This document shows positions 16,393-61,966 of a stretch of DNA of 64,000 nucleotides, one piece after another. The translations under genes were made by a program, and so were the position numbers. Each line of letters starts with the position of its first letter. The stretch's first letter is position 1. This stretch comes from Diaphorobacter limosus (GTDB lineage: Bacteria > Pseudomonadota > Gammaproteobacteria > Burkholderiales > Burkholderiaceae_C), in the NCBI RefSeq assembly GCF_033100095.1, contig NZ_CP136921.1, positions 2,996,001 through 3,060,000 on the forward strand, in the 5' to 3' direction. Under the pieces are notes generated by a model. The model was not told the DNA's origin. It searched no databases and saw nothing but the letters and a program-made list of their open reading frames with translations.

Positions 16393-17160
16393 ATGACCAC
16401 CGCCATCCTCAGCGCCCTGCCCGAAGAGCAGGGCGGCCTCGTCCAAGCCCTGCAGGCGCCCGAATGCATCACCCATGCCGGGCGCAGCTTCTGGCGCGGC
16501 CGGCTGCTGGGCCAGCCGGTGCTGCTGGCGCTGTCGGGCATAGGCAAGGTGGCGGCGGCCACCACGGCGACGCTGCTGGCCGAGCGCTTTGGCGTGGCGC
16601 GCATCGTCTTCACCGGCGTGGCCGGCGGCTTGGGCGATGGCGTGCAGGTAGGGGATGTGGTGGTGGCGCAGGACTTTCTGCAGCACGACATGGACGCCTC
16701 GCCCATCTTCCCGCGCTGGGAGGTGCCCGGCTACGGGCTGGCGCGCATGCCTTGCGATGCGGCGCTGACCACTATGCTATTTGAAGCTGCCAACGCTTAT
16801 CTGACAAGCGATAGAGCCGGATTTGATCCAAAAAATCCGGTGATTGCGCACCGCCACCCGGCACGCGCGCACCAGGGGCTGATCGTCAGCGGCGACCGCT
16901 TTGTCTCCACCTCGGCCGAATCCGCCGCGCTGCGCCAGGCGCTGGGCGCCGCCGGCCATCAGGTGCTGGCCGTGGAGATGGAGGGCGCGGCCGTGGCCCA
17001 GGTGTGCCGCGACTACGGCCTGCCGTTTGCGGCCGTGCGCACCATCTCGGACCGGGCCGACGACAGCGCGCATGTGGACTTTCCGCATTTCGTGCGCCAT
17101 GTGGCCAGCCGCTATGCCGATCACATCATCCAGGGTTTACTGCAGTCACTATCAAAATAA
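16393..17160 (+). CDS. mtnN: 5'-methylthioadenosine/S-adenosylhomocysteine nucleosidase
   Basis: This enzyme cleaves adenine from methylthioadenosine and S-adenosylhomocysteine, recycling by-products of methylation and polyamine synthesis. The 255-residue product shows GIGKVAAA, FTGVAGGLGDGVQVGDVVVAQDFLQHDMD, the EMEGAAVAQVC substrate-binding motif, and RTISDRAD with the catalytic Asp. It is about 20 residues longer than the usual enzyme. The extra segment around residues 129-147 (LFEAANAYLTSDRAGFDPK) is encoded by a copy of the dispersed 60-bp repeat. A second copy provides the stop codon. It is divergent from the nap operon. Confidence 0.93.
   Translation: MTTAILSALPEEQGGLVQALQAPECITHAGRSFWRGRLLGQPVLLALSGIGKVAAATTATLLAERFGVARIVFTGVAGGLGDGVQVGDVVVAQDFLQHDMDASPIFPRWEVPGYGLARMPCDAALTTMLFEAANAYLTSDRAGFDPKNPVIAHRHPARAHQGLIVSGDRFVSTSAESAALRQALGAAGHQVLAVEMEGAAVAQVCRDYGLPFAAVRTISDRADDSAHVDFPHFVRHVASRYADHIIQGLLQSLSK
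16775..16833 (+). repeat. Dispersed 60-bp repeat, copy 1, in frame within mtnN
   Basis: Carries the core ACGCTT-N7-AAGCGA, preceded by GAAGCTGCC and followed by GCCGGATTTGATCCAAA, so it has the family layout AGCTG, palindrome, GCC, ATTT. Sense to the gene. Confidence 0.75.
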
Positions 17161-17210
17161 GAGCTGTTTGCGCTTGTTGCATAAGCGCTGGCGGCCTATT
17201 TTGCTTGAAA
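17149..17210 (+). repeat. Dispersed 60-bp repeat, copy 2, at the 3' end of mtnN
   Basis: The best-preserved copy: CTATCAAAATAAGAGCTG, then the perfect core GCGCTT-N7-AAGCGC (17170-17188), then TGGCGGCCTATTTTGCTTG. The TAA inside CAAAATAA is the mtnN stop codon. Confidence 0.85.
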
Positions 17211-17235
17211 TGCGTCAGCGCAGCCGGCACCGGGC

Positions 17236-18903: not shown

Positions 18904-18996
18904 GGGGCTTTGACGCAGAGTGTGGGCCCACATCGTAGATCGGTTGCGCGCCGCAGCGCAACATCTTGCGGGCGTGCTTGCGGGGCATTGCCGGCG

Positions 18997-24760: not shown

Positions 24761-24782
24761 GTTTTATTTTAGGAGAACATCA

Positions 24783-28140: not shown

Positions 28141-29139
28141 TCAGCCGGCCGCCGCGGCGCGTTGCAGGCGGTCGCGCACGCCTTCCCAGTCGGGGGTGTC
28201 GGGCGGGGCCTCGATCCAGATCAGGCGCGCGCCGGCATCGTCAAAGCCGCGAAGCACGGCAAACAGCTGCTGGGCGGCGGCGGCGGCATCATCGGGCATG
28301 CGGCGCAGAGTGATTTTCGACGATGCCGAGCGCAGCGGCGCGCGCGCATAGACGGCCAGATGGGCGGCGTCGGCGCCCAGTATGTCCAGGCCGGCCTGCA
28401 GTTGCCTGGCATCCATCAGGCGCACGCGCGCCGTCGGGGCGTAATGAGCCAAAAGCGTGCCTGGCGCTCGTGGAGTATGCGTAGGCAGCTCTTCTTTTGA
28501 TAGTAGTTCTATGCCGCAAACGCGGCGCACGTCGGCGCGCGAGATGGCGCCCGGGCGCAGCAGCACGGGCAGGCCGCGCGTGCAGTCGATGATGGTCGAT
28601 TCGATCCCCACGGCGCAGGGGCCGCCGTCCAGCACCAGCAGCTGGTCGCCAAAGGCCTCTGCCACATGCTGCGCCGTGGTCGGGCTGACCTTGCCGAACA
28701 GATTGGCGCTGGGCGCGGCCACGCCCCAGACGGGCGGATCGAGCCGCTGGCAGGCCGCCAGCACCGCATGGGCCACGGGGTGGGCCGGGCAGCGCAGGCC
28801 CACGCTGTCCTGCCCGCCGGTGGAGGCGCGCGCCGCGGCAGGCAGGCGCGGCAGGATCAGCGTGAGGGGCCCGGGCCAGAAGGCGTCTATCAGCTGCTGC
28901 GCGAACAGCGGCACCTCCTTGGCGTAATGGGTGATGGCCGAGGCATCGGCCACATGCACGATCAGCGGGTGGTTGGCGGGCCGGCCCTTGGCGGCAAAGA
29001 TCTGGGCCACGGCGGCGTCGTTGTCGGCATCGGCCGCCAGGCCGTACACCGTCTCGGTCGGCAGGCCCAGCAGCGCGCCGCGCGCCAGCGCCTGCGCGGC
29101 GGCCTGCACCGAGGCATCGAGCTTGCCGTCGATGATCAC
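28141..29139 (-). CDS. Threonylcarbamoyl-AMP synthase (Sua5 type)
   Basis: This enzyme makes threonylcarbamoyl-AMP from threonine, bicarbonate and ATP for t6A tRNA modification. The 332-residue protein is the two-domain Sua5 form. A YrdC-like catalytic domain (PTETVYGLAADA, KGRPANHPLIVHV, WPGPLTLIL, GVAAPSANLFGKVSPTTA) is followed by a linker and a C-terminal Sua5 domain. The linker segment GIELLSKEELPTHTPRAPGT is encoded by a repeat copy. GTG start at 29139 with GAGGGG before it. It follows purK by ten bases, so it is probably co-transcribed with purEK. Confidence 0.93.
   Translation of the reverse strand: MIIDGKLDASVQAAAQALARGALLGLPTETVYGLAADADNDAAVAQIFAAKGRPANHPLIVHVADASAITHYAKEVPLFAQQLIDAFWPGPLTLILPRLPAAARASTGGQDSVGLRCPAHPVAHAVLAACQRLDPPVWGVAAPSANLFGKVSPTTAQHVAEAFGDQLLVLDGGPCAVGIESTIIDCTRGLPVLLRPGAISRADVRRVCGIELLSKEELPTHTPRAPGTLLAHYAPTARVRLMDARQLQAGLDILGADAAHLAVYARAPLRSASSKITLRRMPDDAAAAAQQLFAVLRGFDDAGARLIWIEAPPDTPDWEGVRDRLQRAAAAG
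28446..28509 (-). repeat. Dispersed 60-bp repeat, copy 3, within the Sua5 gene
   Basis: On the minus strand it reads CTACTATCAAAAGAAGAGCTG, then a diverged palindrome and CTTTTGGCTC. Sense to the gene, but read in a different frame from the mtnN, cnoX and leuS copies. Confidence 0.65.
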
Positions 29140-29149: not shown

Positions 29150-30319
29150 TCAGAACGGCGCTATGCCGAGAATGGCCGCCGCCTGCAGCGCCACGGCGCG
29201 CACCGCCTCGGGCGTGGCGCCGGTCACGTTCAGGTGGCCCATCTTGCGCCCGCGTTTTGCGTCGCGCTTGCCGTACAGGCGCAGGTGGCAGCCGGGCAAG
29301 GCCAGTACCTGTTCCCAGGCCGGGGTGACGGGCGCATCGCCCTGGGCAAACCACAGGTCGCCCAGCAGGTTCAGCATGATGGTCGGGCTGTGCAGGCGCG
29401 GCTGCGTGAGCGGCAGGCCGGTCATGCAGCGCAGCTGCAGCTCGAACTGCGAGACGTCGCAGGCGTCCTGGCTGTAGTGGCCGCTGTTGTGCGGGCGCGG
29501 GGCGATCTCGTTGACCACCAGGCTGCCGTCCTGCAGCACGAAAAACTCGACGCACAGCACACCCACGTAGTGCAGGCCATCTGCTACTGATTTAGCAGCT
29601 GCCAGCGCTTGGGCGGCAAGCGCTGGCGGCAGATTTTGCTCATAAACCTCGGTCACGGCCAGAATGCCGCCCCGGTGCAGGTTGCGCTGCACCGGCAGGT
29701 GCACCATGGCGCCGTCACGGCCGCGCGCGACGATGACCGAGCATTCCTGCGCCAGCGGCAGCATTTTTTCGAGCACGCAGGGCACGCCGCCCAAGTCTTG
29801 CCAGGCGGCGGCCCGCTCGGCCGGCGTGGACACACGCGCCTGGCCCTTGCCGTCGTAGCCCATGCGCGCGGTTTTCAGGATGCCGGGCAGCAGGTCTGCG
29901 GGCACGGCCGCCATCTGCTCGGGCGATTCGATCAGCGCATGCGGCGCCACGGGCACGCCGCAGCGCACAAAGTGCGCCTTCTCGGCCGCGCGGTCCTGGG
30001 CAATGGCCACGGCGCTGCCTGCGGGCGACACGCGCCGCGTCTGCGCCAGCAGATCGAGCGCCGCGGCCGGCACGTTCTCGAACTCGGTGGTCACGGCGGC
30101 GCACAGGCGCGCCATCTCGGCCAGGCCCTGCGCGTCCTCGTAGCCGGTGCGGATATGGTGGTGACTCACCAGGCCGGCGGGGCTGGTGGGGTCGGCATCG
30201 AGCACGGCGGTGAAGTAGCCCATGGCCTGGGCCTCCTGCACGAACATGCGCCCGAGCTGCCCGCCGCCGAGCACGCCCAGCGTGGCGCCGGGCAGGATCA
30301 CGTCCTGATCGGCGCTCAT
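29150..30319 (-). CDS. purK: N5-carboxyaminoimidazole ribonucleotide synthase PurK
   Basis: PurK uses ATP and bicarbonate to carboxylate AIR, giving the substrate of PurE in purine synthesis. The 389-residue ATP-grasp enzyme shows [22 protein letters not shown], the GYDGKGQ loop, [20 protein letters not shown] residues ([16 protein letters not shown]) and the C-terminal domain. It lies between purE, overlapping by ATGA, and the Sua5 gene. Residues around 225-245 ([20 protein letters not shown]) come from an antisense copy of the dispersed repeat. Confidence 0.95.
29582..29645 (+). repeat. Dispersed 60-bp repeat, copy 4, antisense within purK
   Basis: Perfect core GCGCTT-N7-AAGCGC flanked by AGCAGCTGCCA and TGGCGGCAGATTTTGCTCA. 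Runs opposite to purK yet keeps its frame open. Confidence 0.8.
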
Positions 30320-30978: not shown

Positions 30979-31887
30979 ATGATCGATGTCACCGTAGAAA
31001 ACTTTGAAGCCGAGGTGGTTGCCGCCTCCATGACCACGCCCGTGCTGGTGGACTTCTGGGCGCCCTGGTGCGGCCCCTGCAAGACGCTGGGCCCGGTGCT
31101 GGAGAAGCTGGAGGTGGCCTACGCCGGCCGCTTCACGCTGGCCAAGATCGACTCCGACCAGCAGCAGCAGCTGGCGGCGATGTTCGGCATCCGCAGCATT
31201 CCCACCTGCGTGCTGATGATGAACGGCCAGCCGGTGGACGGCTTCACCGGCGCCCTGCCCGAGGGCCAGCTGCGCGCCTTTCTGGACAAGCACCTGCCCA
31301 GCGCCGAGGAGTTGCAGGCCGAGGAGCAGGAGGAACAGGCCCAGGAGGCCCTGGCCGGCGGCGACACCGCGGGCGCGCTGGAGGCGCTGCAGCAGGCCGT
31401 GCTGACCGACCCGGCCAACGAAGAGGCGCGCTTTGACTACGTCAAACTGCTGCTGCAGCAGGGCCGCGAGGACGACGCCAAGGTGGCCTTCGCCCCGGTG
31501 ATCGCCAAGGCCGAGGGCTCGCGCCGCCTGGGCGCGCTCAAGGCCTGGATGGATGCTCTTGATTTTGTAACTGCAGGCGCTTATGGGGCGGGCGCTGGAG
31601 CCGAATTTGATGCAAAGATTGCCGCCAACAAGCGTGATTTCGAGGCGCGCTACGGCCGCGCCCGCTGGCTCATGGCCCAGCAGCGCTGGACGGACGCCAT
31701 GGACGAGCTGCTGGAAATCCTGATGCGCGACAAGGGCTGGAACGAGGAGGCCGCGCGCAAGACCTATATCGCCATCTTGGAGCTCATCGAGCCGCCCCGG
31801 GTCAAGGTCGCCGAGGGCCAGATCCCGCCCGAGGATCCGGTGCTGGCCAGCTACCGCCGGCGCCTGTCCAGCGTCGTGCTGAGTTGA
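30979..31887 (+). CDS. cnoX: Thioredoxin-fold co-chaperone CnoX (YbbN-like)
   Basis: CnoX-type proteins combine a thioredoxin domain with TPR helices and protect clients from oxidation before passing them to GroEL or DnaK. The 302-residue protein has an N-terminal thioredoxin domain with an intact redox motif WCGPCK (Cys31/Cys34), unlike E. coli CnoX, which lacks the classical pair. An acidic linker and TPR-like helices follow to the C terminus. Residues about 194-211 (FVTAGAYGAGAGAEFDAK) are encoded by a repeat copy. The ATG at 30979 gives the complete thioredoxin fold. It overlaps the next gene's start. Confidence 0.88.
   Translation: MIDVTVENFEAEVVAASMTTPVLVDFWAPWCGPCKTLGPVLEKLEVAYAGRFTLAKIDSDQQQQLAAMFGIRSIPTCVLMMNGQPVDGFTGALPEGQLRAFLDKHLPSAEELQAEEQEEQAQEALAGGDTAGALEALQQAVLTDPANEEARFDYVKLLLQQGREDDAKVAFAPVIAKAEGSRRLGALKAWMDALDFVTAGAYGAGAGAEFDAKIAANKRDFEARYGRARWLMAQQRWTDAMDELLEILMRDKGWNEEAARKTYIAILELIEPPRVKVAEGQIPPEDPVLASYRRRLSSVVLS
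31554..31617 (+). repeat. Dispersed 60-bp repeat, copy 5, in frame within cnoX
   Basis: TGCTCTTGATTTTGTAACTG, a diverged palindrome around GGCGCTTATGGGG, then GGAGCCGAATTTGATGCAAA. Sense to the gene, read in the same frame as the mtnN copy. Confidence 0.7.
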
Positions 31888-33637: not shown

Positions 33638-33941
33638 GTCGGTGGGGCAGGCGCGCGCAAAACGAATCGGCTGCGCCGACGGGCGCAGCGAAAGCGGCCC
33701 ATTCTAGCGGTGCGCCCGGGTTGCGCAGGCGGGCGCCGCGCGCAGGGGAAAGCCGGCCCATTGTGGAACATTTCTGCTGGTTTGACATTTGTTCCGCATA
33801 TCCCATATCCGCGGGCCAGGAAAGGCGTTGCGTTCCACGGCCGGCACGCGCATAGTGAATCCAGGGATGTGCGCATGCCATCCCCGGTCGCCCAGCTTCC
33901 AATCGGGTGGGCGGCATTGTTCAATTGAAGGAGGCTTGTCT
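33638..33941. other. Divergent intergenic region between purC and hpf
   Basis: A 304-base stretch with no gene. It holds a sigma-70-like promoter for hpf (33782-33809) and an inverted repeat GGAACA (33766-33771) / TGTTCC (33790-33795) spaced by 18 bases, which flanks the -35 element and could bind a regulator. Confidence 0.6.
33782..33809 (+). promoter_or_regulatory. Candidate sigma-70 promoter of hpf-ptsN-hprK
   Basis: A perfect TTGACA -35 (33782-33787), a 16-base spacer, and a weak CATATC -10 (33804-33809). It would give a leader of about 125 bases before hpf. Confidence 0.4.
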
Positions 33942-34292
33942 ATGAATTTGACGATCAGCGGTCATCATCTCGAAGTGACCCCGGCCTTGCGTAGCTATGT
34001 GACCACCAAGCTGGATCGCATCATTCGCCACTTCGACCAAGTGGTGGACGTGAAGGTACTACTGACCGTAGAGAAGCAAAAGGAGAAGGAAAAACGCCAG
34101 CGCGCGGAATGCACGCTGCATGTGAAAGGCAATGACCTGTTCGTGGAGAGCGCCCATTTCGACCTGTATGCGGCCATCGATGAACTGATGGACAAGCTCG
34201 ACCGCATGGTCGTGCGCCACAAGGATCGCCAGCAGGATCACCAGGCCGGCCTGCGCCGCGCCACGGCCCAGGCGGCCGCCGCGGCGTCCTGA
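33942..34292 (+). CDS. hpf: Ribosome hibernation-promoting factor
   Basis: HPF binds the 30S subunit in stationary phase and drives 100S dimer formation or 70S silencing. The 116-residue protein is the short form. The beta-alpha-beta-beta-beta-alpha fold is recognisable from [32 protein letters not shown] and the final helix [23 protein letters not shown], followed by a disordered Gln/Ala-rich tail. GAAGGAGG precedes the ATG. It lies before ptsN and hprK as in many beta-proteobacteria; rpoN, often its upstream neighbour, is not here. Confidence 0.95.
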
Positions 34293-38517: not shown

Positions 38518-38940
38518 ATGGCATTCGGCCGCCTGGAGCGCACCAAGGGCGCGGAGCCCATGAGCGACATCAACGTGACCCCGCTGGTGGACGTGATGCT
38601 GGTGCTGGTGGTGATCTTCATCCTCACCGCGCCGCTGCTGGCCAGCAGCATCCGCCTGCAACTGCCGCGCGCCGAGGGCGCCCAGGGCGGCACGCCGGAG
38701 CATGCGGTATCGCTGGCGGTCGATGCCGCCGGCCAGGTCTATCTGGACGAAGCGCCGGTGGACGCCGCCACCCTGGCCCAGCGCCTGCGGCAGATCGCCA
38801 ACCAGCGCCCCGACACCGAGGTTCAGCTGCGCGCCGACCGCAGCGTGCCCTATGGGCGTGTGGTCGAGGTCATGGATGCGGCGCAGGCGGCCGGCCTGAC
38901 GCGCATGGGTTTCGTGGCCCAGCCATCAACTCAAAAATAA
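38518..38940 (+). CDS. exbD: ExbD/TolR-family biopolymer transport protein
   Basis: The partner of ExbB. The 140-residue protein has a single transmembrane helix (about residues 23-43) with the conserved Asp in VDVMLVLVVIFILTAP, and a periplasmic domain ending in the TolR/ExbD fold (VPYGRVVEVMDAAQAAGLTRMGFV). The last codons and the TAA stop fall inside a copy of the dispersed repeat (CCATCAACTCAAAAATAA), so the true ancestral C terminus may have been slightly different. Confidence 0.92.
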   Translation: MAFGRLERTKGAEPMSDINVTPLVDVMLVLVVIFILTAPLLASSIRLQLPRAEGAQGGTPEHAVSLAVDAAGQVYLDEAPVDAATLAQRLRQIANQRPDTEVQLRADRSVPYGRVVEVMDAAQAAGLTRMGFVAQPSTQK

Positions 38941-38984
38941 GAGCGTCTGGCGCTTGCTGTACGGGCGTTATAGGCCAAACAACT
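38925..38984 (+). repeat. Dispersed 60-bp repeat, copy 6, at the 3' end of exbD
   Basis: ATCAACTCAAAAATAAGAGC, GGCGCTT-N7-GGGCGTT core, then TAGGCCAAACAACT. Same orientation and same stop-codon position (AAATAA) as copy 2 after mtnN. Confidence 0.75.
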
Positions 38985-39002
38985 CCCAATTCAGGCATCT
39001 CC

Positions 39003-40470: not shown

Positions 40471-43206
40471 ATGCAAGACAAATACAACCACACCGAGGTG
40501 GAGCGCGCCGCGCACGCCCACTGGACGGCCAGCGATGCCTACCGCGTCACCGAGGATCAGGCAAAACCGAAGTACTACGCCTGCTCCATGCTGCCCTACC
40601 CCAGCGGCAAGCTGCACATGGGCCATGTGCGCAACTACACCATCAACGACATGCTCACGCGCCAGCTGCGCATGAAGGGGTTCAATGTACTCATGCCCAT
40701 GGGCTGGGACGCCTTCGGCCTGCCGGCCGAGAACGCCGCGCTGAAGAACAAGGTGCCGCCCGCGCAGTGGACCTACGACAACATCGCCTACATGAAGCAG
40801 CAGATGCAGGCCATGGGCCTGGCCATCGACTGGAGCCGCGAGGTCGCCACCTGCGACCCGGAGTACTACAAGTGGAACCAGTGGCTGTTTTTGAAGATGC
40901 TGGACAAGGGCATTGCCTACCGCAAGACCCAGGTGGTGAACTGGGACCCGGTGGACCAGACCGTGCTGGCCAACGAGCAGGTGATAGACGGCAAGGGCTG
41001 GCGCACCGGCGCGCCGGTGGAAAAGCGCGAGATCCCCGGCTACTACCTGAAGATCACCGACTACGCGCAGGAGCTGCTCGACCATGTGCAGGTCGGCGGC
41101 GAAAAGGCCACCTTGAGCGGCTGGCCCGACAAGGTGCGCCTGATGCAGGAGAACTGGATCGGCAAGAGCGCCGGCGTGCGCTTTGCCTTCACGCACGACA
41201 TCCAGGACGCGCAGGGTCATTTGATCCAGGACGGGAAGATGTATGTCTTCACCACGCGCGCCGACACCATCATGGGCGTGACCTTCTGCGCCGTGGCCCC
41301 CGAGCACCCGCTGGCCACGCACGCCGCGCAGGGCAATGCCAAGCTGGCCGCCTTCATTGAAGAATGCAAGAAGGGCGGCACCACCGAGGCCGAGCTGGCG
41401 CTGAAGGAAAAAGAGGGCATGGCCACCGGCCTGTTCGTCACCCACCCCTTGAGCGGCGAGCAGATCGCCGTCTGGGTCGGCAACTACGTGCTGATGAGCT
41501 ACGGCGACGGCGCCGTGATGGGCGTGCCCGCGCACGACGAGCGTGACTTTGCCTTTGCGCTGAAGTACGACCTGGAGATCGAGCAGGTGATCCTGGTCGA
41601 TGGCGAGCATTTCGACCACGAGCGCTGGCAGGACTGGTACGCCGACAAGGAGCGCGGCGTGACCATCAACTCCGACAACTTCAGCGGCCTGGCCCACAAG
41701 GACGCCGTCGCCGCCGTGGCCGCCGCCCTGGCCGCCAAGGGCCTGGGCGAGCTCAAGACCACCTGGCGCCTGCGCGACTGGGGCGTGAGCCGCCAGCGCT
41801 ACTGGGGCACGCCGATCCCCATCATCCACTGCCCGGACTGCGGCGCCCAGCCCGTGCCCGAGAAGGACCTGCCCGTGGTGCTGCCGCCGGATCTGGTGCC
41901 CGACGGCTCGGGCAACCCGCTGGTGAAAAGCGAGCAGTTTCACGCCGGCGTGGTCTGCCCCTGCTGCGGCAAGGCCGCGCGGCGCGAGACCGACACCATG
42001 GACACCTTCGTCGATAGCTCCTGGTACTTCATGCGCTATTGCGACGCGCAGAACCACGACGCCATGGTCGGCGCCGGCACGGACTACTGGATGCGGGATC
42101 AGAATGCCGCTACCGGTGGCAGCGGCATGGACCAGTACATCGGCGGCATCGAGCACGCCATCCTGCACCTCTTGTACGCGCGCTTCTGGACCAAGGTCAT
42201 GCGCGACCTGGGGCTGGTCAAGGTCGACGAGCCCTTCACCAAACTGCTGACCCAGGGCATGGTCTTGAACCATATCTACAGCCGCAAGAGCGCCAAGGGC
42301 GCGAAGGACTATTTCTGGCCGCATGACGTGGAACACATCCACGACGAGACGGGCAAGATCGTCGGCGCCAAATTGAAGAACGCGGCCGAGAGCACCGACG
42401 GTCTGCTCCCCGTGGGCACGGCCATCACCTACGAGGGCGTGGGCACCATGTCCAAGTCCAAGAACAACGGCGTCGATCCGCAGCACCTGATCGAAAAGTA
42501 CGGCGCCGACACCGCGCGCCTGTACACCATGTTCACCGCGCCGCCCGAGCTGACGCTGGAGTGGAACGACGCGGCGGTGGAGGGCAGCTACCGCTTCCTG
42601 CGCCGGGTGTGGAACTTCGGCGTGAAGCTGTCTGCTATTGATAGAGAAGCTGCCAGCGCAAGTACAGCGGGCGTTACAAGCCTGAATGACGTTGAGTTTG
42701 GCAAGGAGGCGAAGGCCCTGCGCCTGGAGATCCACACCGTGCTCAAGCAGGTGGAGTACGACTACCAGCGCATGCAGTACAACACCGTGGTCTCCGGCGC
42801 CATGAAGATGATCAACGCGCTGGAGGACTTCAAGGCCCAGGACAGCGCAGGCGCCGCCGTGGCGCTGATCGAGGGCTTTGGCATCCTGCTGCGCGTGCTC
42901 TACCCGGCCACGCCGCACATCACGCACGCGCTGTGGACCGAGCTGGGCTACGCCGGCTCCCTGGGCGATCTGCTGGACGCCGCCTGGCCCCAGGTGGACG
43001 CTGGCGCCCTGGTGCAGGACGAGCTGGAGCTGATGCTGCAGGTGGGCGGCAAGCTGCGCGGCGCGATCCGCGTGCCGGCCAGCGCCGACAAGGCCGCCAT
43101 CGAGGCCGCGGCGCTGGCCAGCCCCGACTTCCAGAAATTTGCCGAAGGCAAGGCGCCCAAGAAGGTCATCGTCGTGCCCGGCCGCCTGGTCAACGTGGTG
43201 CTGTGA
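40471..43206 (+). CDS. leuS: Leucyl-tRNA synthetase
   Basis: Class I synthetase that charges tRNA-Leu and edits mischarged products. The 911-residue protein has the HIGH motif in [14 protein letters not shown] (about residue 45), the editing domain with [15 protein letters not shown], the zinc-type CPDCG and CPCCG motifs, and the KMSKS motif as [15 protein letters not shown]. It is longer than the usual 860-880. About 20 extra residues ([19 protein letters not shown]) come from a repeat copy at the start of the anticodon-binding region. The ATG at 40471 is the family start. lptE overlaps its stop by one base. Confidence 0.96.
42633..42697 (+). repeat. Dispersed 60-bp repeat, copy 7, in frame within leuS
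   Basis: TGCTATTGATAGAGAAGCTG, CCAGCGCAAGTACAGCGGGCGTT, then a diverged right end ACAAGCCTGAATGA. Sense to leuS and read in the same frame as the mtnN and cnoX copies. Confidence 0.7.
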
Positions 43207-43793: not shown

Positions 43794-43835
43794 TGCTGGC
43801 CTTGCGTGCGCCAGTAGCGAAGGTAGCGCATTTCA

Positions 43836-43896
43836 CTATTGTTTATATAGCTGTTTGCGCTTTATGGATAAGAGTTGGAGCCTGATTTGACTCAAA
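43836..43896 (+). repeat. Dispersed 60-bp repeat, copy 8, overlapping the holA start
   Basis: CTATTGTTTATATAGCTG, TTTGCGCTTTATGGATAAGA, then GTTGGAGCCTGATTTGACTCAAA. The right end contains GGAG and the TTG used as the holA start. Confidence 0.75.
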
Positions 43897-44936
43897 TCTC
43901 TCTGAGCCAGCTCGCCGCCCACCTGGCCAAGGGCCCGCGCCCGCTCTACACCCTGCACGGCGACGAGGCCCTGTTGCAGCAGGAGGCGCTGGACGCCATA
44001 CGCGCGGCGGCGCGCGCCCAGGGTTATACCGAGCGCAGCAGCTTCACCGTGGCCGGCGCGCACTTTGACTGGAGCGCGGTGCTGGCCGCTGGCGGCTCAT
44101 TGAGCCTGTTTGCCGACCGGCAGATCGTCGAGATCCGCATCCCCTCGGGCAAGCCCGGCAAGGACGGCGGCGCCGCGCTGCAGCAGATCGCCCAGGCGGC
44201 GCAGGGCAACGACAGCGTGCTCACCCTGGTCGTGCTGCCGCGCCTGGACAAGGCCACCAGGACCGGCGCCTGGTTCTCGGCGCTCGAAGCACATGGCGCC
44301 ACGGTGCAGATCGACCCCGTGGAGCGCGCCCAGCTGCCGGCCTGGATCGCCCAGCGCCTGGCCGCCCAGGGCCAGCGCGTGGCCGCCGGCGAGGAGGGCC
44401 AGCGCACGCTGCAATTCTTTGCCGACCGCGTCGAGGGCAACCTGCTGGCCGCGCACCAGGAGATCCAGAAGCTGGCCCTGCTGCACCCCCAGGGCGAGCT
44501 GTCGCGCGAACAGGTCGAGGCCGCCGTGCTCAACGTCGCGCGCTACGACGTGTTCAAGCTCTCCGAGGCCGTGCTCTCCGGCCAGGTGGCGCGCACCCAG
44601 CGCATGCTCGACGGCCTGCAGGCCGAGGGCGAGGCCGAGGTGCTGGTGCACTGGGCACTGGCCGAGGACATACGCGCCCTGAAGCGCGTGAAGGACGCCA
44701 TGAACGCCGGCAAACCGCTGCCCATGGCGCTGCGCGAAAACCGTGTCTGGGGCGTCAAGGAGCGGCTCTACGAACGCCTGCTGCCCCAGGCCAGCGACGC
44801 GCAGCTGGCGCGCCTGCTGCAATCGGCGCATGTGGTGGACGGGATCGTCAAGGGCTTGAAGCAAGCCGACTGGCCACAGGACGGCTGGCAGGCGCTGTCG
44901 CGCCTGGCGCTGCAGCTGTGCCGCCTGGGGCGCTGA
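43887..44936 (+). CDS. holA: DNA polymerase III delta subunit HolA
   Basis: HolA opens the beta clamp within the clamp loader. The 349-residue product begins with QLAAHLAKGPRPLYTLHGDEALLQQEALDAIRAAA, the family's N-terminal ATP-binding-like fold. It continues with the conserved FADRVEGNLLAAHQEIQKLALLHP and ends in the helical collar domain. I place the start at TTG 43887 because GGAG lies six bases upstream and it matches the family's length before QLAAHL. TTG 43875 is a second choice. Both start codons and the ribosome site lie inside a copy of the dispersed repeat. Confidence 0.92.
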   Translation: MTQISLSQLAAHLAKGPRPLYTLHGDEALLQQEALDAIRAAARAQGYTERSSFTVAGAHFDWSAVLAAGGSLSLFADRQIVEIRIPSGKPGKDGGAALQQIAQAAQGNDSVLTLVVLPRLDKATRTGAWFSALEAHGATVQIDPVERAQLPAWIAQRLAAQGQRVAAGEEGQRTLQFFADRVEGNLLAAHQEIQKLALLHPQGELSREQVEAAVLNVARYDVFKLSEAVLSGQVARTQRMLDGLQAEGEAEVLVHWALAEDIRALKRVKDAMNAGKPLPMALRENRVWGVKERLYERLLPQASDAQLARLLQSAHVVDGIVKGLKQADWPQDGWQALSRLALQLCRLGR

Positions 44937-50175: not shown

Positions 50176-50442
50176 CTACTCCTCCCAGAACGCCTCGATC
50201 AAATCGCCCTCGGCGTCCAGCAGCCACCATTCGATCACCACGTCGCGCTGGCCCATGCCCAGCAGCCCGAGGAGGCCGCGCGGGGCGCCGCGGCGCGGGC
50301 AGCGCCACAGCTGGTCGCCCGGCTGCATGCGCGCCAGCACGGCGCGGCGCAGGTCGGGATGCACCTCGGGGCCGTGGACATCGACCAGGCGGTCCTGGCC
50401 GTCGCCGATCTCGGCGGGCGTTGCGGGGCGGGGGCGGCTCAT
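50176..50442 (-). CDS. Small unknown protein downstream of the MmeI-like gene
   Basis: An 88-residue protein (MSRPRPATPAEIGDG...) whose ATG overlaps the stop of the restriction-modification gene as ATGA. The C-terminal half (VVIEWWLLDAEGDLIEAFWEE) is acidic and Trp-rich. I recognise no family. The translational coupling supports a real gene that may work with or protect against the enzyme. A chance open frame is less likely but possible. Confidence 0.6.
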   Translation of the reverse strand: MSRPRPATPAEIGDGQDRLVDVHGPEVHPDLRRAVLARMQPGDQLWRCPRRGAPRGLLGLLGMGQRDVVIEWWLLDAEGDLIEAFWEE

Positions 50443-53400
50443 GGGGCGTCTGCGGTGCGGCTGCGCTCGTGGTTCAGCGCCAGCAGGCGGCGCAGGATTT
50501 CGTCGTCGGGCATGTCGGCGCGCCAGTCCTGCCAGCCGTAGGCCGCGGCCACGGCAGCGTCCAGTTGCGCGTGGGCCTGGGCCAGCCAGGCGGGGCGCTG
50601 GTTGTAGAGGTTGGTCAGGGTGCGTTTTTGCAGGGCCTTGGCGTCGGCTTCGCTCAGGTTGGGGCGCGGCTCGATGCGGTCGGGGTAGGGCGAGGCGTCC
50701 ATGCCCAGCGGCACGGCCTCAGGCACGGCCCGTGTCCACTCGGGCGGGTTGAGCCAGTTGCGGCGCAGCTGGTCCAGGCGCTGGGCGGCCTGGGCGATGG
50801 CGCTGGCGGCGGCGCGTGCGTCTATGTTTTTGATAGCTGTTTGCGCTTGCTGGGTGGGCGCTAGCGGCATTTTTTGCTTGAAATCTTCCGCCAGGCCGGA
50901 GGGGATCAGCGCGCCGCCCTCCAGGGCCTCGGTGCGCTGGTGGGCCGTGTCCGCGGGGGTCAGGCCGGCGGGGAAGGGGAAGGTTTCGAAGCAGGTGGTG
51001 GGGGTGTAGCGCGGGTCGTTGCCCACGCCTAGCCAGGTGCCCATGCGCAGCGACCACAGCTCGTGCATGCGGCTGTGCAGGATGCCGAAGGTGGTGTCGT
51101 CGGCGCGGGCGATGGCGACGGTGGCGGTGTCGGGGATGGCGCTGCCCGGGCTCCACACGAAGAGTCGGTGTTTGGATACACGGACGGTGAGCGCAAAACG
51201 TGCCAAGCGCTCCAGCGCGATGCGCATTGCGGGGCGACTGCGCTCATGTAACCACCACTTGGCATCCTTGCGTGTGGGCTTTACATGCTTCAAGACGTGT
51301 TCGAACGGAGCCTCGTAGAGCGATGCTTCGGGTTCGGTGGCGTTTACACCGAAATCGACAATCCACATGTCTTGCGGGCGGCGCACAACGTTTGCGCCAT
51401 TACTCCACGGGCGGATTACCCGGCTGTTGCTCATGCCGTTGACGTTAGGCAATCGCAGCCAATACCTGGCGATCTCACCCGAGATCTCAAAGGTGCCGTA
51501 TTTCTTGGTGCCCTCGAATGCTGTGTTTTCGTTTTCCGGCAAATGAACGGCGGTACTGGCATCGAAGCCGGCAAGGTCAGCCAAATTGGCATCGATGTGC
51601 GTGGTCGTGCGGCCGTTAAGGCGTGTGGCGTTGCAATTGCCAAAACAGACCAATGACACTCGCACTGCTGCCCCGTCGTTGACCCACGGCTCGTCAGACC
51701 AAGCATCAAAAATTGCAGAGTCTTTGCATATGGCCTCCAGGACGGTGCGGTTGACGCCGCCGCGAATGGAGTTGGTTGCGACCAGCCCTGCCGCTTGTAA
51801 ACCGTGCAACTGAATTTCTTGCAGGGCTTTGTCGAACCAATAGCACACCAAGTCAGCAAACCCGGGGACGCGGCTGCCATAGACGAGGTTGAGAGCATCA
51901 AAGTAGTTGCCTCCCAGCTCGCCGCGTTTCTTGCTGCCCCCCAAAAACGGCGGATTGCCCACCACCACGTCGGCGCGGGGCCAGGGGGCTTCGGTGGCGG
52001 TAGCGCCCGGTGGGCCGGCTTCGGGGTCGGAGCCCGAGTTTCGCTGCGCGAAATCGGGATCCGACCCCGAAGCCTGGGTGGCTGGGTGCGCGGGGGCTAG
52101 CGCTGGCGCGGCGGCGGTTGCGGCTGTTGCTCCCTCGCCCCCTTGGGGGAGAGGGTGGGGGTGAGGGGGTGCTTCGGCGCTGCGCCCGGTGGAGTCACCC
52201 TCACCCCAGCCCTCTCCCGCTTGCGGGCGAGGGGGCAAGGACAGCAGCGCGTCGCGGCATTCGATCTGCTCCAGCGGCTCCAGCACGGGGTTGGTCTTGA
52301 CCTCGTAGCCGTGGGCGATGCGCCACTGGATCTCGCCTATCCACAGCGACACGCGCGCCAGCTCGGCGGCGTATTCGTTCAGCTCTATGCCCAGCATGTT
52401 GTGCGGGCCGGTGACCAGATCCTGCTCGCGCGCCAGGCCCAGGTTGGCGGCCTGGGTGATGCAGTACAGCTCCACGTCCTTCAGTGCCTTCAGGCCCAGG
52501 AACAGAAAGTTGCCGCTGCCGCAGGCGGGGTCGAGGATGCGGAACGCGCGCAGCCGCTCCAGCCATTGCACGAAGCGGTTGTGGGCCTTTTTGTAGGCGG
52601 CGTCGCCATGTTTCCTGATCTTGGCCGTTTGCGCTTGCAGGTCTTGCGCCAGAAGCTCCCATTCTTGTAGCAATGGCCGGGTGATGACGGGCTCGATGAT
52701 GCGGGCTATTGTTGCCGGGTCGGTGTAGTGCGCGCCCAGCTGGCTGCGCTTGGCGGGGTCCAGGCCGCGTTCGAACAGGGTGCCGAAGATGGAGACGTCG
52801 ATGGCGCTCCAGTTCAGGCCGGCGGCGTTGCGCAACTCGGTGATGTCGAGGATCTCCAGCTTCGGGACATGGATGTGCGCGAACAGCCCGCCGTTGAACC
52901 AGGGGATGTCGTCCGGCCCGTACAGGCCGCCGGTCTGCATGGTGGTGAAGAGCTGCGCCAGGCCGGTGGTCAGGCGCTCGCTGGTGATCTGGCGGTTGCC
53001 CACCAGGCGCTCGAACATGCGCCCGGGCAGCAGGCCCACGTCTTCGGCAAAGAAGCAGAACAGGCATTGGGTGAGGAAATGCGCCACCGCGTCGGGGTGG
53101 TGGCCGCGCCCGCGCAGCTGCTCGGCCAGCAGGGCAAAGCTTTTGGCGGCGGCCTCGGTGATGTCGCGGTTGGTCTGGCGCGGGCGAAAGCTTTGCGGGT
53201 CGGTCCACAGCCGGCGCAGCAGCTGGCGCTTCTCCGGCTGGTCGAGCTGCTCGATGCGCACGGTGTGCGTCTCGCTCGGGTGGCCGTTGAACTGGGTGTG
53301 GATGCGGATGGTCAGGCGGTCGCAGACCACCAGCAGCGGCGGGTTGGAGAGTGCCAGGCTGTACTGCTGCAGCTGGCGCAGCGCGGCGTCCAGGTTCTTG

Positions 53401-53648
53401 CCGGGGGCCTTGTTCTCCCAGGCGAAATGGTCGCGGTAGAACACGTCGGCATAGCCGCGCGCCTCGCCCAGGATGAGGGACTGGCGCTCGAAGCTGTATT
53501 CCTGCGCGACGTCGGGGCTGCCGGGCTTGGGGACGCCCAGCAGCTCGCACAGGCCCAGGAAATGGCTTTGCGCGCCCTGCTCCTCGTTCAGGTGGGCGCT
53601 GCTGCCGCCGGGGCCCCATTGGGCGATGAAGTCGGTGGGGGTGGTCAC
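50439..53648 (-). CDS. MmeI-like fused restriction endonuclease/DNA methyltransferase
   Basis: Predicted type IIL enzyme (1069 residues) that both methylates and cuts DNA. Asp68, Glu78 and Lys80 in DVFYRDHFAWENK keep the exact D-X9-E-X-K spacing of the MmeI nuclease site. The SAM motif I is ILDPACGSGNFL (about residue 375). The adenine-methyltransferase motif IV is NPPF (about 565), followed by a helical and target-recognition region. It is longer than MmeI partly because about 85 residues between ECRDALL and PWPRADVVVGNPPF (about 465-550) are encoded by palindromic repeats. Another dispersed repeat lies in the C-terminal third. GTG start at 53648 with a weak ribosome site. Confidence 0.88.
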   Translation of the reverse strand: MTTPTDFIAQWGPGGSSAHLNEEQGAQSHFLGLCELLGVPKPGSPDVAQEYSFERQSLILGEARGYADVFYRDHFAWENKAPGKNLDAALRQLQQYSLALSNPPLLVVCDRLTIRIHTQFNGHPSETHTVRIEQLDQPEKRQLLRRLWTDPQSFRPRQTNRDITEAAAKSFALLAEQLRGRGHHPDAVAHFLTQCLFCFFAEDVGLLPGRMFERLVGNRQITSERLTTGLAQLFTTMQTGGLYGPDDIPWFNGGLFAHIHVPKLEILDITELRNAAGLNWSAIDVSIFGTLFERGLDPAKRSQLGAHYTDPATIARIIEPVITRPLLQEWELLAQDLQAQTAKIRKHGDAAYKKAHNRFVQWLERLRAFRILDPACGSGNFLFLGLKALKDVELYCITQAANLGLAREQDLVTGPHNMLGIELNEYAAELARVSLWIGEIQWRIAHGYEVKTNPVLEPLEQIECRDALLSLPPRPQAGEGWGEGDSTGRSAEAPPHPHPLPQGGEGATAATAAAPALAPAHPATQASGSDPDFAQRNSGSDPEAGPPGATATEAPWPRADVVVGNPPFLGGSKKRGELGGNYFDALNLVYGSRVPGFADLVCYWFDKALQEIQLHGLQAAGLVATNSIRGGVNRTVLEAICKDSAIFDAWSDEPWVNDGAAVRVSLVCFGNCNATRLNGRTTTHIDANLADLAGFDASTAVHLPENENTAFEGTKKYGTFEISGEIARYWLRLPNVNGMSNSRVIRPWSNGANVVRRPQDMWIVDFGVNATEPEASLYEAPFEHVLKHVKPTRKDAKWWLHERSRPAMRIALERLARFALTVRVSKHRLFVWSPGSAIPDTATVAIARADDTTFGILHSRMHELWSLRMGTWLGVGNDPRYTPTTCFETFPFPAGLTPADTAHQRTEALEGGALIPSGLAEDFKQKMPLAPTQQAQTAIKNIDARAAASAIAQAAQRLDQLRRNWLNPPEWTRAVPEAVPLGMDASPYPDRIEPRPNLSEADAKALQKRTLTNLYNQRPAWLAQAHAQLDAAVAAAYGWQDWRADMPDDEILRRLLALNHERSRTADAP
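50823..50884 (+). repeat. Dispersed 60-bp repeat, copy 9, antisense in the MmeI-like gene
   Basis: TTTTTGATAGCTG, TTTGCGCTTGCTGGGTGGGC, GCTAGCGGCATTTTTTGCTTGAAA. Opposite to the gene and in frame (protein FKQKMPLAPTQQAQTAIKN), the same frame as the antisense purK and proA copies. Confidence 0.75.
52019..52072. repeat. 54-bp palindrome inserted in the MmeI-like gene
   Basis: CTTCGGGGTCGGA...TTTCGC, TGC, GCGAAA...TCCGACCCCGAAG: nearly perfect inverted arms of about 25 bases with a 3-base loop. Translated in frame as the repeated peptide SGSDPDFAQRNSGSDPE. Confidence 0.88.
52130..52235. repeat. Bipartite CTCCCTCGCCC palindrome inserted in the MmeI-like gene
   Basis: Two inverted halves (52130-52171 and about 52195-52235), each with its own hairpin (GCCCCCTTGGGGG and CCCGCTTGCGGG). 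Homologous to 55406-55514. In frame, giving a Pro/Gly-rich peptide (PHPHPLPQGGEG). Confidence 0.88.
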
Positions 53649-53657
53649 GGGTTGCTT

Positions 53658-53709
53658 TTGTTTTGCTAGCTGCTGGCGCTGGTTTGGCGGGCGTATCAGG
53701 CGGTTTTGC
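53658..53709 (+). repeat. Dispersed 60-bp repeat, copy 10, between the 97-aa gene and the MmeI-like gene
   Basis: TTTTGCTAGCTG, CTGGCGCTGGTTTGGCGGGC, GTATCAGGCGGTTTTGC. It contains the stop codon of the 97-residue gene on the other strand. Confidence 0.65.
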
Positions 53710-53989
53710 CCGCAAGTGTGGCACGCGCCTTGTCCAGCCATTGCTGCAGGCTGTCCAGCAGGCCCTGGTGGCTGAAGGAGCAGCTTTCCTCGGTGAACAG
53801 GGCGCCGGCCTCCAGGCGGTCGAGCAGGGCCAGCAGCACCTCGGCGTAGCGCGGCGGCAGGGCGGCCAGCAGGGCGGCGTGGCCGCGCGCGCCGGCGCTG
53901 AAGGCGTGGTTGCTGGTCTGCTGCGCGCGCAGGGCGTGCAGCTGGGCTTGCAGCTCGTCGAGCTGGCGCAGGGCGGTGTTGTGGCTCAT
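53696..53989 (-). CDS. Small helical protein upstream of the MmeI-like gene
   Basis: A 97-residue protein ([23 protein letters not shown]...) with an N-terminal amphipathic coiled-coil followed by helical segments ([36 protein letters not shown]). No recognised family. It lies 47 bases before the MmeI-like start, on the same strand and divergent from proA, so it probably begins the same transcription unit. Its stop lies inside a repeat copy. Confidence 0.65.
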
Positions 53990-54056: not shown

Positions 54057-55337
54057 ATGAATGCCCTGAACATCGCCGAATACACGCACACCCTGGGTTT
54101 ACAGGCAAAAACGGCTTCCGCGCTTATGGCGCGGGCGCAAGCAGCTATTAAAAACAAAGCATTGCTGGCGCTGGCGCGGCTGTTGCGCGAGAACGTGCAG
54201 GCCCTGCAGGCGGACAACGCCGCCGACCTTGCGCGCGCCCGCGCCGCCGGGTTGCCTGAGCCCATGGTCGATCGCCTGAAGCTGACCCCCGCGGTGCTGG
54301 AGACCTGCGCCCTGGGCTGCGAGCAGCTGGCGGCCATGCCGGACATCATTGGCGAGATCATCGGGATGAAGCAGCAGCCCAGCGGCATCCGCGTGGGCCA
54401 GATGCGCGTGCCGATTGGCGTGTTCGGCATGATTTACGAGAGCCGGCCGAATGTGACCATCGAGGCGGCCAGTCTGTCGATCAAGAGCGGCAACGCCTGC
54501 ATTCTGCGCGGCGGATCGGAGGCGATTGACTCCAACCGCGCGCTGGCGCGGCTGGTGGCGCTGGCGCTGGCCGAGGCCGGCCTGCCCGAGCACGGTGTGC
54601 AGCTGGTGCAGACCACAGACCGCGCCGCCGTGGGCCAGCTGATCGCCATGCCCGCGTATGTGGACGTGATCATTCCGCGCGGCGGCAAGGGGCTGATAGA
54701 GCGCATCAGCGCGGAGGCCAAGGTGCCGGTGATCAAGCACCTGGACGGCAATTGCCACAGCTATGTCGATGACCCTTGCGACCTGGATCTGGCCGTGACG
54801 GTGGTGGACAACGCCAAGACGCAGAAATACAGCCCCTGCAACGCCACCGAGAGCCTGCTGGTGGCGCGCGCCGTGGCGCCGGCCTTTTTACCGCGCATCG
54901 GCGCCGTCTTCGCCGAAAAAGGGGTGGAAATGCGGGTTTGCGCTGAAAGTAGGGCGCTGCTGGCTACTGTTTCAGGAGCAAAACTGGTCGACGCCACCGA
55001 GGCTGACTGGAGCGAGGAGTATCTGGCGCCCATCATCAGTATCAAGGTGGTGGCGGGGCTGGACGAGGCGATTGCCTGGATCAACCGCTACAGCAGCCAC
55101 CACACCGAGGCCATTCTGACCACCGACCACCGGCATGCGCAGCGCTTTTTGCGCGAGGTGGATTCGGCCAGCTGCATGGTCAACGCCAGCACGCGCTTTG
55201 CCGATGGTTTTGAGTACGGTCTGGGCGCGGAGATCGGCATCAGCACCGATAAATTCCACGCGCGCGGGCCGGTGGGGCTGGAGGGGCTGACGTCGCTGAA
55301 GTATGTGGTGCTGGGCGAGGGCGAGGTGCGGCGCTGA
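54057..55337 (+). CDS. proA: Gamma-glutamyl phosphate reductase ProA
   Basis: ProA reduces gamma-glutamyl phosphate with NADPH in proline synthesis. The 426-residue protein has the aldehyde-dehydrogenase fold: [43 protein letters not shown] and the catalytic-cysteine region [37 protein letters not shown] follows at the end. The ATG at 54057 fits the family start. Residues about 16-35 ([19 protein letters not shown]) lie in a repeat copy; a second, weaker copy may cover about residues 294-311. Confidence 0.95.
54098..54161 (-). repeat. Dispersed 60-bp repeat, copy 11, antisense within proA
   Basis: On the minus strand TTTTTAATAGCTG, CTTGCGCCCGCGCCATAAGC, then GCGGAAGCCGTTTTTGCCTG. Antisense, in frame, and in the same frame as the purK and MmeI-like copies. 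A more diverged copy may lie at 54936-54990. Confidence 0.65.
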
Positions 55338-57081: not shown

Positions 57082-57091
57082 GCCCTCGGCC

Positions 57092-58558: not shown

Positions 58559-58625
58559 ACTACGTATGCGCCCGCCTGGGGCGCGTCCCTACAATGCTGC
58601 GCTTGACTGCATTACATGGGGTTAT

Positions 58626-59921: not shown

Positions 59922-60038
59922 GCCCGGTTCAGCGCCCGTGGCAGCCCTGCCACGGGCTTGGTGCGCGGCGCCTGCGGCGGGCGCACAATCAGCATCCCTT
60001 CCTACCAGGAACCCCGGCCGCGCGCCGGGAGACAGTCC

Positions 60039-61907
60039 GTGCAAAACTCGAAATCCTCGCTCGCGGGTCTGACCGTGGGCGCCATCGGCGTGGTCTTCGG
60101 CGACATCGGCACCAGCGTGCTCTACACCGTCAAGGAGGTGTTCGCCACCGGCCATGTGCAGTTCACCCATGACAACGTGTATGGCGTGCTGTCGCTGATC
60201 TTCTGGACGCTCACCATCATCGTCTCCGTCAAATATGTGGTGCTGGTGCTGCGCGCCGACAACAACGGCGAGGGCGGCCTGGTGGCCATGCTCACGCTGG
60301 CGTCGCGCGCCGTGGCGGATCGGCCCCGGCTGCGCCACTGGATGCTGCTGGTGGGCATTTTTGGCACCTGCCTGTTCTATGGCGACGGTGTCATCACCCC
60401 CGCGATCACGGTGCTGGGCGCCATGGAGGGGCTGGAGGTGATGTCGCCCGAGCTGACCAAGTACGTCATCCCGCTGACGCTGCTGGTGTTGTTTCTGCTG
60501 TTTTTGTTCCAGAAGCAGGGCACGGCCGGCATAGGCAAGTTCTTCGGCCCGGTGATGCTGCTGTGGTTTGCCACCATCGCGGCGCTGGGGCTGCTGCACA
60601 TCGCCCGGCACCCGGAGATTCTGTGGGCCGTCTCGCCGCATTACGCCTGGGTGTTCGCGCTGCACAACCCGGGCATCACCTTCATCATCCTGGGCGCGGT
60701 GGTGCTGTGCGTCACCGGCGGCGAGGCGCTGTACGCCGACATGGGGCATTTTGGCAAGCGCCCGATTCGCCTGGCCTGGTTCTCCATCGCCATGCCGGCG
60801 CTGGTGTTGAACTACTTTGGCCAGGGCGCGCTGCTGCTGGCCGAGCCCGAGGCGGTGAAGAACCCGTTCTTCAACCTGGCGCCCGAATGGGCCACGCTGC
60901 CGCTGGTCTGCCTGGCCACGGCGGCGGCGGTGATCGCCTCGCAGGCGCTGATCTCGGGCGCTTTCAGCGTCACCAAGCAGGTGATACAGCTCGGGTTTCT
61001 GCCGCGCCTGCAGATCCAGCACACCAGCGTGCATGACAAGGGGCAGATCTACATGCCCTTTGTCAACTGGGGGCTGTTCGTGCTGATCGTGCTGGCGGTG
61101 GGCATGTTCCGCAGCTCGGGCAACCTGGCGGCGGCCTACGGCATTGCGGTGACCACCGACATGCTGATCACCACCGTGCTCACCTTCTTCGTCGTGCGCT
61201 ATGCCTGGAAGCTGCCGCTGTTGCTGTGCATAGGGGCGTCGGGCCTGTTCTTCACGGTGGACATCCTGTTCTGGTCGTCGAATCTGCTCAAGCTGATCCA
61301 CGGCGGCTGGTTCCCGCTGGTGATCGCCGGGGCGGTGTTCCTGCTGATGGTGACCTGGCGCGACGGCCGCGCGCTGCTGACCCAGGCGCTGCAGGACCAG
61401 GCGCTGGATCTGAAGGATTTTCTGTCGGCGCTGTTCATTGCCCCGCCCACGCGCGTCGAGGGCGCGGCGGTGTTCCTTACCTCGCGCGACGGCATCGTGC
61501 CCAATGCCCTGCTGCACAACCTCAAGCACAACAAGGTGCTGCACGGGCAAAACCTGTTCGTCACCGTGCAGAACCACGAGGTGCCCTGGATAGGCATGGA
61601 AAAGCGGCTGGAGGCCGAGGCGCTGGGCAATGACTGCTGGCGCGTGATCGTCAATTACGGCTTCAAGAACGACTACGACCTGCCCAAGGCGCTGTCCCTG
61701 CTGCGGGAGCAGGGCGTGGATCTGAACCCGATGACGACCAGCTACTTCCTCTCGCGCGACATCGTCACGCCCACGCTGGGTGTGGGCATGGCGCTGTGGC
61801 GTGAAAAGCTGTTTGCCCAGATGCACCACAGCGCCAGCGCGGCGGCGGAGTTCCTGAATCTGCCCAACAACGCGGTGGTGGAGCTGGGCTCCAAGGTGGA
61901 GATTTGA
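60039..61907 (+). CDS. kup: Kup potassium transporter
   Basis: Low-affinity K+/H+ symporter. The 622-residue protein equals the E. coli Kup length. It begins [28 protein letters not shown], has about twelve transmembrane helices including [27 protein letters not shown], and a long cytoplasmic C terminus. GTG start at 60039 with GGGAGA eight bases upstream. The stop TGA lies within a repeat copy. Confidence 0.95.
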
Positions 61908-61966
61908 AGTGTTTTTGGCCGTTTGCACATGCTGGTAAAGCGCAAACAGCTATCAAATATATAGTG
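61901..61966 (-). repeat. Dispersed 60-bp repeat, copy 12, at the 3' end of kup
   Basis: On the minus strand CTATATATTTGATAGCTG, TTTGCGCTTTACCAGCATGT, GCAAACGGCCAAAAACACTT. Antisense to kup and supplying its stop codon. Confidence 0.75.

Follow-up and report, generated by a model that had tools for sequence, protein, structure and literature searches.

Background

DNA uptake sequences (DUS) and uptake signal sequences (USS) are built on a core of 9-12 bp. One account of Neisseria describes DUS as forming terminator pairs, lying in permissive regions, being gained through recombination and point mutation, being conserved above their flanks and occurring once per 1.15-1.5 kb (PMC2397512). Dispersed repeats of another sort are known from the Comamonadaceae and Bordetella: the BRE family, some copies of which lie in coding sequences, measures 75-91 bp at full length in Bordetella, has a GC content of ~69%, is tandem in some places and numbers at most 29 copies per genome (PMC3110155). 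Here we examine a 64-kb stretch (G000:C1:2996001-3060000, hereafter the window) of the 4.10 Mb, single-contig genome of Diaphorobacter limosus (the source genome), which harbours a dispersed, palindrome-cored repeat of about 64 bp.

With DUS and USS this 64-bp motif shares a large number of copies, their presence in genes and in permissive regions, inverted pairs at gene ends and an apparent gain by base change and recombination (PMC2397512, PMC1939737). It differs in its length and two arms, in half-motifs that are not enriched, in its lower density and in the bacterial family that carries it, and any role in uptake is putative. Conservation above the flanks, as set out for DUS (PMC2397512), holds here for high-information columns only. 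Rickettsia palindromic elements (RPE) are likewise palindrome-cored repeats found in frame within unrelated metabolic genes (PMC10969869), whereas they measure ~150 bp and belong to Rickettsia, another class of bacteria than the one with the ~64-bp core treated here. Moreover, several sites here carry the motif in place and not as an insert (whole-element lengthening fits the linker of an MmeI-like gene and partly dapE and dapF), and the hairpin palindrome is not kept, the arms of the core being without covariation (z 0.9; -1.4 in genes). From BRE the family is set apart, on the published description (PMC3110155), by 42-49% GC and ~656 copies per genome.

The motif occurs in several hundred copies per genome with fixed spacing, its sequence is kept without pairing of the core stem, and it is concentrated at gene 3' ends. 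At several sites it lies, without change of length, on ancestral coding sequence, and both the motif and several of its sites recur in other genera. We propose, with a probability of about 0.4, that it is a rigid, two-armed recognition motif in duplex DNA, which sequence-biased recombination spreads and maintains in the manner of a DNA uptake sequence.

Results and Discussion

Copy number and controls

A first model (R1), built from sequence only on nine copies in the window, gave at least 150 matches in the source genome, where 150 of 1732 candidates were scored. Because R1 had been trained on window copies, its matches to orthologues of the window's own genes are partly circular; a hidden Markov model (h3) was therefore trained without the window, on copies from 40 evenly spaced 20-kb stretches (800 kb) of the source genome, and the window detections rest on h3. 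At E<=0.01 this model finds 128 copies in the 800-kb sample, which extrapolates to ~656 per genome, and 13 in the window in both orientations, ten of them scoring 26-59 bits and three weakly (15.6-19.9 bits); positions 1-16.7 kb of the window hold no copy at this threshold. Reversed sequence yields no match at E<=1 and six at E<=10. In the 864 kb made up of window and sample, copies are split into 72 on the plus and 68 on the minus strand, with an overall density of ~1 per 6 kb, and the GC content of the copy is below that of its flanks in 141 of 141 cases (0.493 versus 0.711 in genes, 0.416 versus 0.681 outside).

The repeat family is real. The original prediction had described a dispersed, palindrome-cored family in both orientations, inside and outside genes and AT-richer than its surroundings, had called for a profile search of the full genome and had named alignment no better than shuffled sequence as the outcome that would speak against it; the genome-wide sample, the window copies, their base composition and the empty reversed control bear it out on each of these points. 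That the copies are a chance product of alanine-rich coding sequence and a loose profile is scarcely credible, and for the strong copies it is refuted by the reversed sequence and by six synonymous shuffle runs without a single in-gene match. What speaks for chance is the weakness of three window copies and the modest enrichment of the bare core pattern, GCGCTT-N7-AAGCGC, which has two exact matches in the window and 25 at up to two mismatches, where 100 shuffles gave 10.3 on average and never more than 18. By itself the bare core is modest evidence; the full profile is strong evidence.

The prediction had recognised no named family, and no name for the motif turned up in the literature searched either: publications on BRE, REP, MITE-type (miniature inverted-repeat transposable element) repeats and uptake sequences yielded no description of it, text searches for letters of the motif led to no paper that looked related, and a term search of PMC3733652 found none of six genus or class names. 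No Rfam family matches the window at its gathering score. Phage records gave no match at E<=0.01 to one 66-bp copy used as query, a weak test for a family so diverged; the exact core pattern is present in 66 stretches of IMG/VR contigs.

Structure of the motif

The h3 consensus of the family is CTATtAAAtTAATAGCTGtTtGCGCTTgattgacAAGCGCTAgAGGCcaATTTgaCTtaAAAt. Its ~64 bp are roughly dyad-symmetric and run through CTAT, an A- or T-tract, ATAGCTG-NNN-GCGCTT, 7 bp, AAGCGC-TAG-AGGC, a second A- or T-tract and CTTGAAA. Among the 141 copies the loop measures 7 bp in 138 and 6 bp in two, the remaining one being without anchor. A position-specific scoring matrix (PSSM), made from 131 of the 141 after copies with other loops or cut ends were dropped, contains ~58 bits overall and 47 bits for the 29 in-gene copies. 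Of these 131, 67 have an A-rich and 59 a T-rich left tract; on the right, 88 have a T-rich tract and 38 an A-rich one. The dinucleotide that adjoins the loop is usually AA or GG and seldom mixed. The core stem shows no covariation above shuffled partners (z 0.9 over the 131 copies; 1.6 over the 102 that lie outside genes and -1.4 over the 29 within); in the outer stem, copies outside genes give a small signal (z 2.9). Since pairing in the core stem is no better than shuffled, it is the duplex sequence and its spacing that are kept rather than a hairpin.

Copies outside genes deviate from the consensus in 21.4 of 62 columns on average (~34%), and despite this divergence some columns are 97-100% conserved. 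Only one of 150 alignments, which represent the 141 distinct copies, has an indel within the 64-column core, while at the observed divergence 32, 65 or 87% of detected copies would be expected to carry one at 2, 5 or 10 indels per 100 substitutions; applied to simulations, the indel parser picks out 226 of 395 detected copies with a single indel and one of 399 controls. The copies do not behave as decaying inserts. This bears on the hypothesis that the family is a miniature mobile element resembling RPE or MITE. It would have entered genes and spacers as a complete unit, after which old copies decayed, and unoccupied orthologues would have lost it or never received it. We regard such an element as an unlikely cause, given diverged copies that are nearly indel-free with fixed spacing, columns close to invariant and a core stem without covariation; the length changes that do favour it are treated with the orthologues below.

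Position relative to genes

Genes were called with our own open reading frame scorer, which assigns 89% of the 864 kb to coding sequence. The 141 copies comprise 30 in genes, 51 over gene 3' ends, 14 over 5' ends and 46 in intergenic sequence. Non-gene copies concentrate at convergent gene ends: the 105 with genes on both sides are situated in 37 convergent, 62 tandem and 6 divergent arrangements, against 61, 333 and 91 among 485 background gaps of at least 20 bp. This distribution, together with the rigid two-armed motif, tracts of either sense and the keeping of the motif in another genus, would suit a binding site of a chromosomal protein, be it a nucleoid organiser or a two-way terminator factor, with direct selection on each site and no drive. 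Yet each site holds ~58 bits, although ~14 would suffice to single out 650 sites, and direct selection on 650 sites, many of them in genes, would impose a heavy load. The terminator version is further ill suited to in-gene copies in both orientations (15 and 15), and a simple terminator scan of two stretches flagged some copies but was overall not above chance (9 versus 9.9 and 11 versus 8.7). A chromosomal site seems to us slightly less probable still than a mobile element. Direct selection for such a site, like a mobile element with later upkeep, may nevertheless account for the family.

The 30 in-gene copies fall equally on both strands, their host genes have no internal stop codon, and copies antisense to the gene tend towards one stop-free frame, a preference that would also suit a mobile element. 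The predicted absence of frameshifts is hence upheld, with eight in-gene copies in the window by the new gene calls: in mtnN, sua5, purK, cnoX, proA, twice in an MmeI-like gene (one weak) and in leuS (weak). Hosts beyond the window, named after Pfam matches, encode an M20 peptidase (dapE-like) and a methyltransferase (prmB-like) or are hemD, dapF, murD and miaA.

Coding copies in excess of codon expectation, a mark of DNA uptake sequences, were found here. With h3, the 30 real in-gene copies in 864 kb compare with none in six synonymous-codon shuffles, with the caveat that 18 of the 22 in-gene sample copies fell within the training threshold of h3. The codon-level tests use a PSSM from outside-gene copies, a few of which lie within the window; with it, gene interiors have 24 matches against 0.2 in shuffled sequence at >=30 bits, 46 against 5.6 at >=0 and 61 against 16.6 at >=-10. 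In seven genes, 8-28 orthologues each have a best score over 5 bits higher than any of 100 synonymous shuffles: 28 of 91 for purK, 15 of 63 for cnoX and, with the source genome itself included, 9 of 30 for dapE, 11 of 17 for prmB, 12 of 30 for dapF, 11 of 30 for hemD and 8 of 30 for murD.

The right half-motif is about twofold enriched between genes. A single short core that is both enriched and sufficient, as in DNA uptake, was not found. Half-motifs also bear on ectopic gene conversion among dispersed copies, which would rewrite partly similar sequence in place and could explain in-place copies on alanine-rich coding stretches that were already motif-like, as well as the fast turnover of low-information columns (0.69 versus 0.86 in flanks, within the genus). 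Half-length products are not enriched in genes, however, clear subfamilies are lacking, and linkage between columns is mostly local, with a mean near nil beyond ~4 bp and few exceptions (the average at distance 8 results artificially from an invariant column). We consider gene conversion improbable.

Orthologues with and without the motif

The prediction had compared the in-gene copies with protein-inserting repeats, and had conceded that orthologues without the repeat but of equal length would contradict insertion. Such orthologues, of the same or nearly the same length, exist for all six in-gene window sites compared (mtnN, sua5, purK, cnoX, leuS and proA). Against up to eight relatives each, and including only rows with a spanning alignment, 37 of 42 pairwise comparisons are gap-free in the 64-bp core; where the relative scores below 10 bits, 10 of 15 are gap-free and the gaps in the other five, at 1-12 nt, fall well short of 64. 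As a general rule, insertion into proteins is therefore not supported; the reading fits the MmeI-like linker and, in part, dapE and the dapF gene of G019, a relative from another genus.

The purK copy (29572..29657, plus strand, antisense to the gene, 44.1 bits) covers a segment of 47 residues in all 23 occupied orthologues (h3>=15 bits) and in 57 of 68 unoccupied ones, ten of which have 46 residues and one 51; Polynucleobacter has 47, and outgroups of the Nitrosomonas type have 46. In cnoX (31547..31632, plus, same strand as the gene, 34.6 bits) all 14 occupied orthologues have 46 residues, as do 32 of 50 others, one being cut by a contig end and the rest ranging from 42 to 52. The sua5 copy (28441..28511, minus, same strand as the gene, 26.3 bits) is gap-free in 8 of 8 relatives, with 41 residues in 4 of 4 occupied and 35 of 69 other orthologues, the rest having 38-55. 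In mtnN, the internal copy (16759..16847, plus, same strand as the gene, 43.5 bits) has a gap-free core in six of eight relatives and gaps of 1-3 nt in two; six of 23 other orthologues score >=15 bits, with segments of 49, 49, 49, 49, 47 and 40 residues, and 12 of the 17 below that score have 49, the others 32-45. The weak leuS copy (42626..42702, plus, 19.9 bits) is gap-free in five of six relatives, and the copy on the early codons of proA as called (54092..54171, minus, antisense, 37.3 bits) in five of five. Outside the window, the murD segment measures 53 residues in occupied and unoccupied family members, apart from five at 55 and one in which 45 residues are inserted beyond the motif. 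G008 and G022 match the source genome in 12 and 14 of 21 murD residues under the motif, and each has 18 of 46 majority bases, against 31 of 46 in the source genome. Judged by these alignments, the purK, murD and proA copies lie on ancestral coding sequence, and those in sua5, cnoX, leuS and mtnN largely so. It speaks against a mobile element that, in purK, murD and proA, the length is unchanged and the protein similar whether or not the copy is present.

Length changes consistent with such an element are found elsewhere. The first copy of the MmeI-like gene (50822..50898, plus, antisense, 49.7 bits) encodes KMPLAPTQQAQTAIK in a linker that, in a comparison of proteins only, has 9 residues in 5 of 117 homologues and at least 27 (27-39 in most) in 112; three of 120 homologues were left out for want of an anchor match. 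Many long linkers carry a recurrent peptide like PLA-x-QAQxAIK, and some hold other inserts. In dapE, most occupied orthologues have 51 residues, unoccupied family members 39-50 and 9 of 11 genomes of other families 39; hemD and dapF differ in length by a few residues, and the dapF of G019 is 13 residues longer. As h3 learned from in-gene sample copies, its bits for dapE, prmB, dapF, hemD and murD are not independent. The protein alignments thus indicate gain or loss of a whole in-frame unit in the MmeI-like linker and smaller gains in dapE and dapF, so that whole-unit gain and loss seems to occur too, at permissive places.

The same linker (window 50439-53648; homologues P0024, P0057, P0059 and P0119) also contains other recurrent peptide inserts, EGGWAAEGSAQ... 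and RRSGAILKSEAYEPPASEPAAPGES, which are possibly further protein-inserting repeats.

Distribution among relatives

The comparison set consists of 59 genomes, labelled G002, G004, G008, G014, G019, G022 and so on, with up to 78 candidates scored per genome. At E<=1e-8 the motif is present in 17 of 35 genomes of the source's family, six of them in the source genus, and in none of the 24 genomes from other families. In G019, 180 kb contain 37 copies with much the same consensus and a 7-bp loop in 36 of them; 120 kb of G008 contain eight, and 100 kb of G022 contain none. Public contigs around purE contain at least one copy in 18 of 80 cases, including records of Comamonas, Acidovorax, Polaromonas and Ramlibacter. 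Individual sites are likewise shared, the codon-aligned site scoring >=15 bits in other genera for purK, cnoX, dapE, prmB, dapF and hemD. In the 64 pairs from nine genes in which both partners reach 15 bits at the codon-aligned site, identity is 0.882 within the genus and 0.836 outside it for high-information columns, 0.864 and 0.769 for the flanks, and 0.692 and 0.637 for low-information columns; high-information columns exceed the flank in 43 of 64 pairs.

A profile search found the DNA-uptake gene product ComEC in carriers and non-carriers of the motif alike, 52 of the 59 genomes in total. All 17 carriers have it, albeit in pieces in G008 and partial in G002.

The comEC gene of G008, a relative with fewer copies of the motif, lies in three pieces (G008:C1:1836740-1837544), which could be a sequencing error. 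Two places on plasmid NC_004956.1 of Pseudomonas sp. ADP (33912-33961) resemble the repeat and may hint at DNA from a carrier lineage.

Biased recombination as a possible cause

Fixed spacing, conservation of the duplex, overlap with codons, permissive positions, the bias towards gene ends and patchy persistence are together best fitted by a recognition motif under biased recombination. The duplex would be recognised by a putative conserved protein, and DNA with a better motif would, by analogy with uptake systems, be preferentially taken up or recombined, so that copies could accumulate wherever protein or intergenic sequence tolerates them. Copies would be gained mostly through base changes in place and occasionally as whole units, as in the uptake sequences of Neisseriaceae and Pasteurellaceae; those at gene ends may additionally act as two-way terminators.

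Several observations weigh against this proposal. To our knowledge, 64 bp and ~58 bits are far beyond any known uptake sequence. Half-motifs are not enriched in genes, unlike short uptake cores, which work singly, and a density of ~1 per 6 kb is lower than the one given for Neisseria DUS in PMC2397512. ComEC is present in most non-carriers as well and so leaves the patchy spread unexplained. In the six-site comparisons, identity beneath the motif mostly falls short of that in the flanks, owing to low-information columns, and the column identities are themselves biased towards upkeep, as both partners were chosen as occupied. Truncated alignments are more frequent among real copies (26 of 150) than in indel-free (8 of 399) or single-indel (31 of 395) simulations, and some indels may therefore hide there. 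One distant mtnN orthologue scores 27.2 bits, yet its segment is nine residues shorter, and unit gain or loss in the MmeI-like linker also fits a mobile unit.

The wider claim is that this family of betaproteobacteria has a third, independent lineage of sequence-biased DNA exchange, whose 64-bp, two-armed signal for uptake or recombination would alter codons of conserved genes in place and keep its sites across genera; this is more doubtful than the recognition motif itself. If a long motif can overwrite conserved coding sequence and persist across genera, cells may select DNA by sequence, and the origin and spread of uptake signals would become testable in a new bacterial group. Dispersed in-protein repeats, in any case, need a check of orthologue lengths before being named insertions.

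A Y1-transposase gene

REP and REPIN sequences resemble the family as short palindromic repeats near gene ends, and the source genome has one Y1-transposase gene (L356:6579-7271, outside the window; 230 aa, its sole PF01797 match), which we take to be of RAYT type. PF01797 matches occur in 44 of 59 genomes. Inverted pairs of a motif of its own, AATTGGGGTCAGATTCCAATTA, flank the gene, and by eye a motif other than the 64-bp one (GGGGTCAGA...) stands beside it and beside most of 16 loci; the consensus of the 64-bp motif has, by eye, no GTAG or CGTC tag. A link to RAYT is not supported, as a strong copy of the 64-bp motif is adjacent in only one of the 16 loci (G014); G000, G004 and G019 have weak copies where the gene ends.

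Further copies and repeats in the window

The highest score in the window, 59.2 bits, belongs to a plus-strand copy covering the mtnN stop codon (17137..17225), with whole or partial copies in the same place in five relatives. Gene 3' ends carry copies at 38931..39000 (plus, 27.5 bits) and 61891..61977 (minus, 45.2 bits), and an intergenic copy of 51.9 bits at 43823..43911 (plus) extends to a called gene start. The MmeI-like gene has a second, weak internal copy (52618..52679, minus, 15.6 bits), and another weak one (53648..53723, plus, 19.3 bits) lies between its called start and the 3' end of the neighbouring gene. Finally, tandem repeats of ~150 bp at 45920-46500 and of 36 bp at 48113-48334 apparently lie within reading frames.

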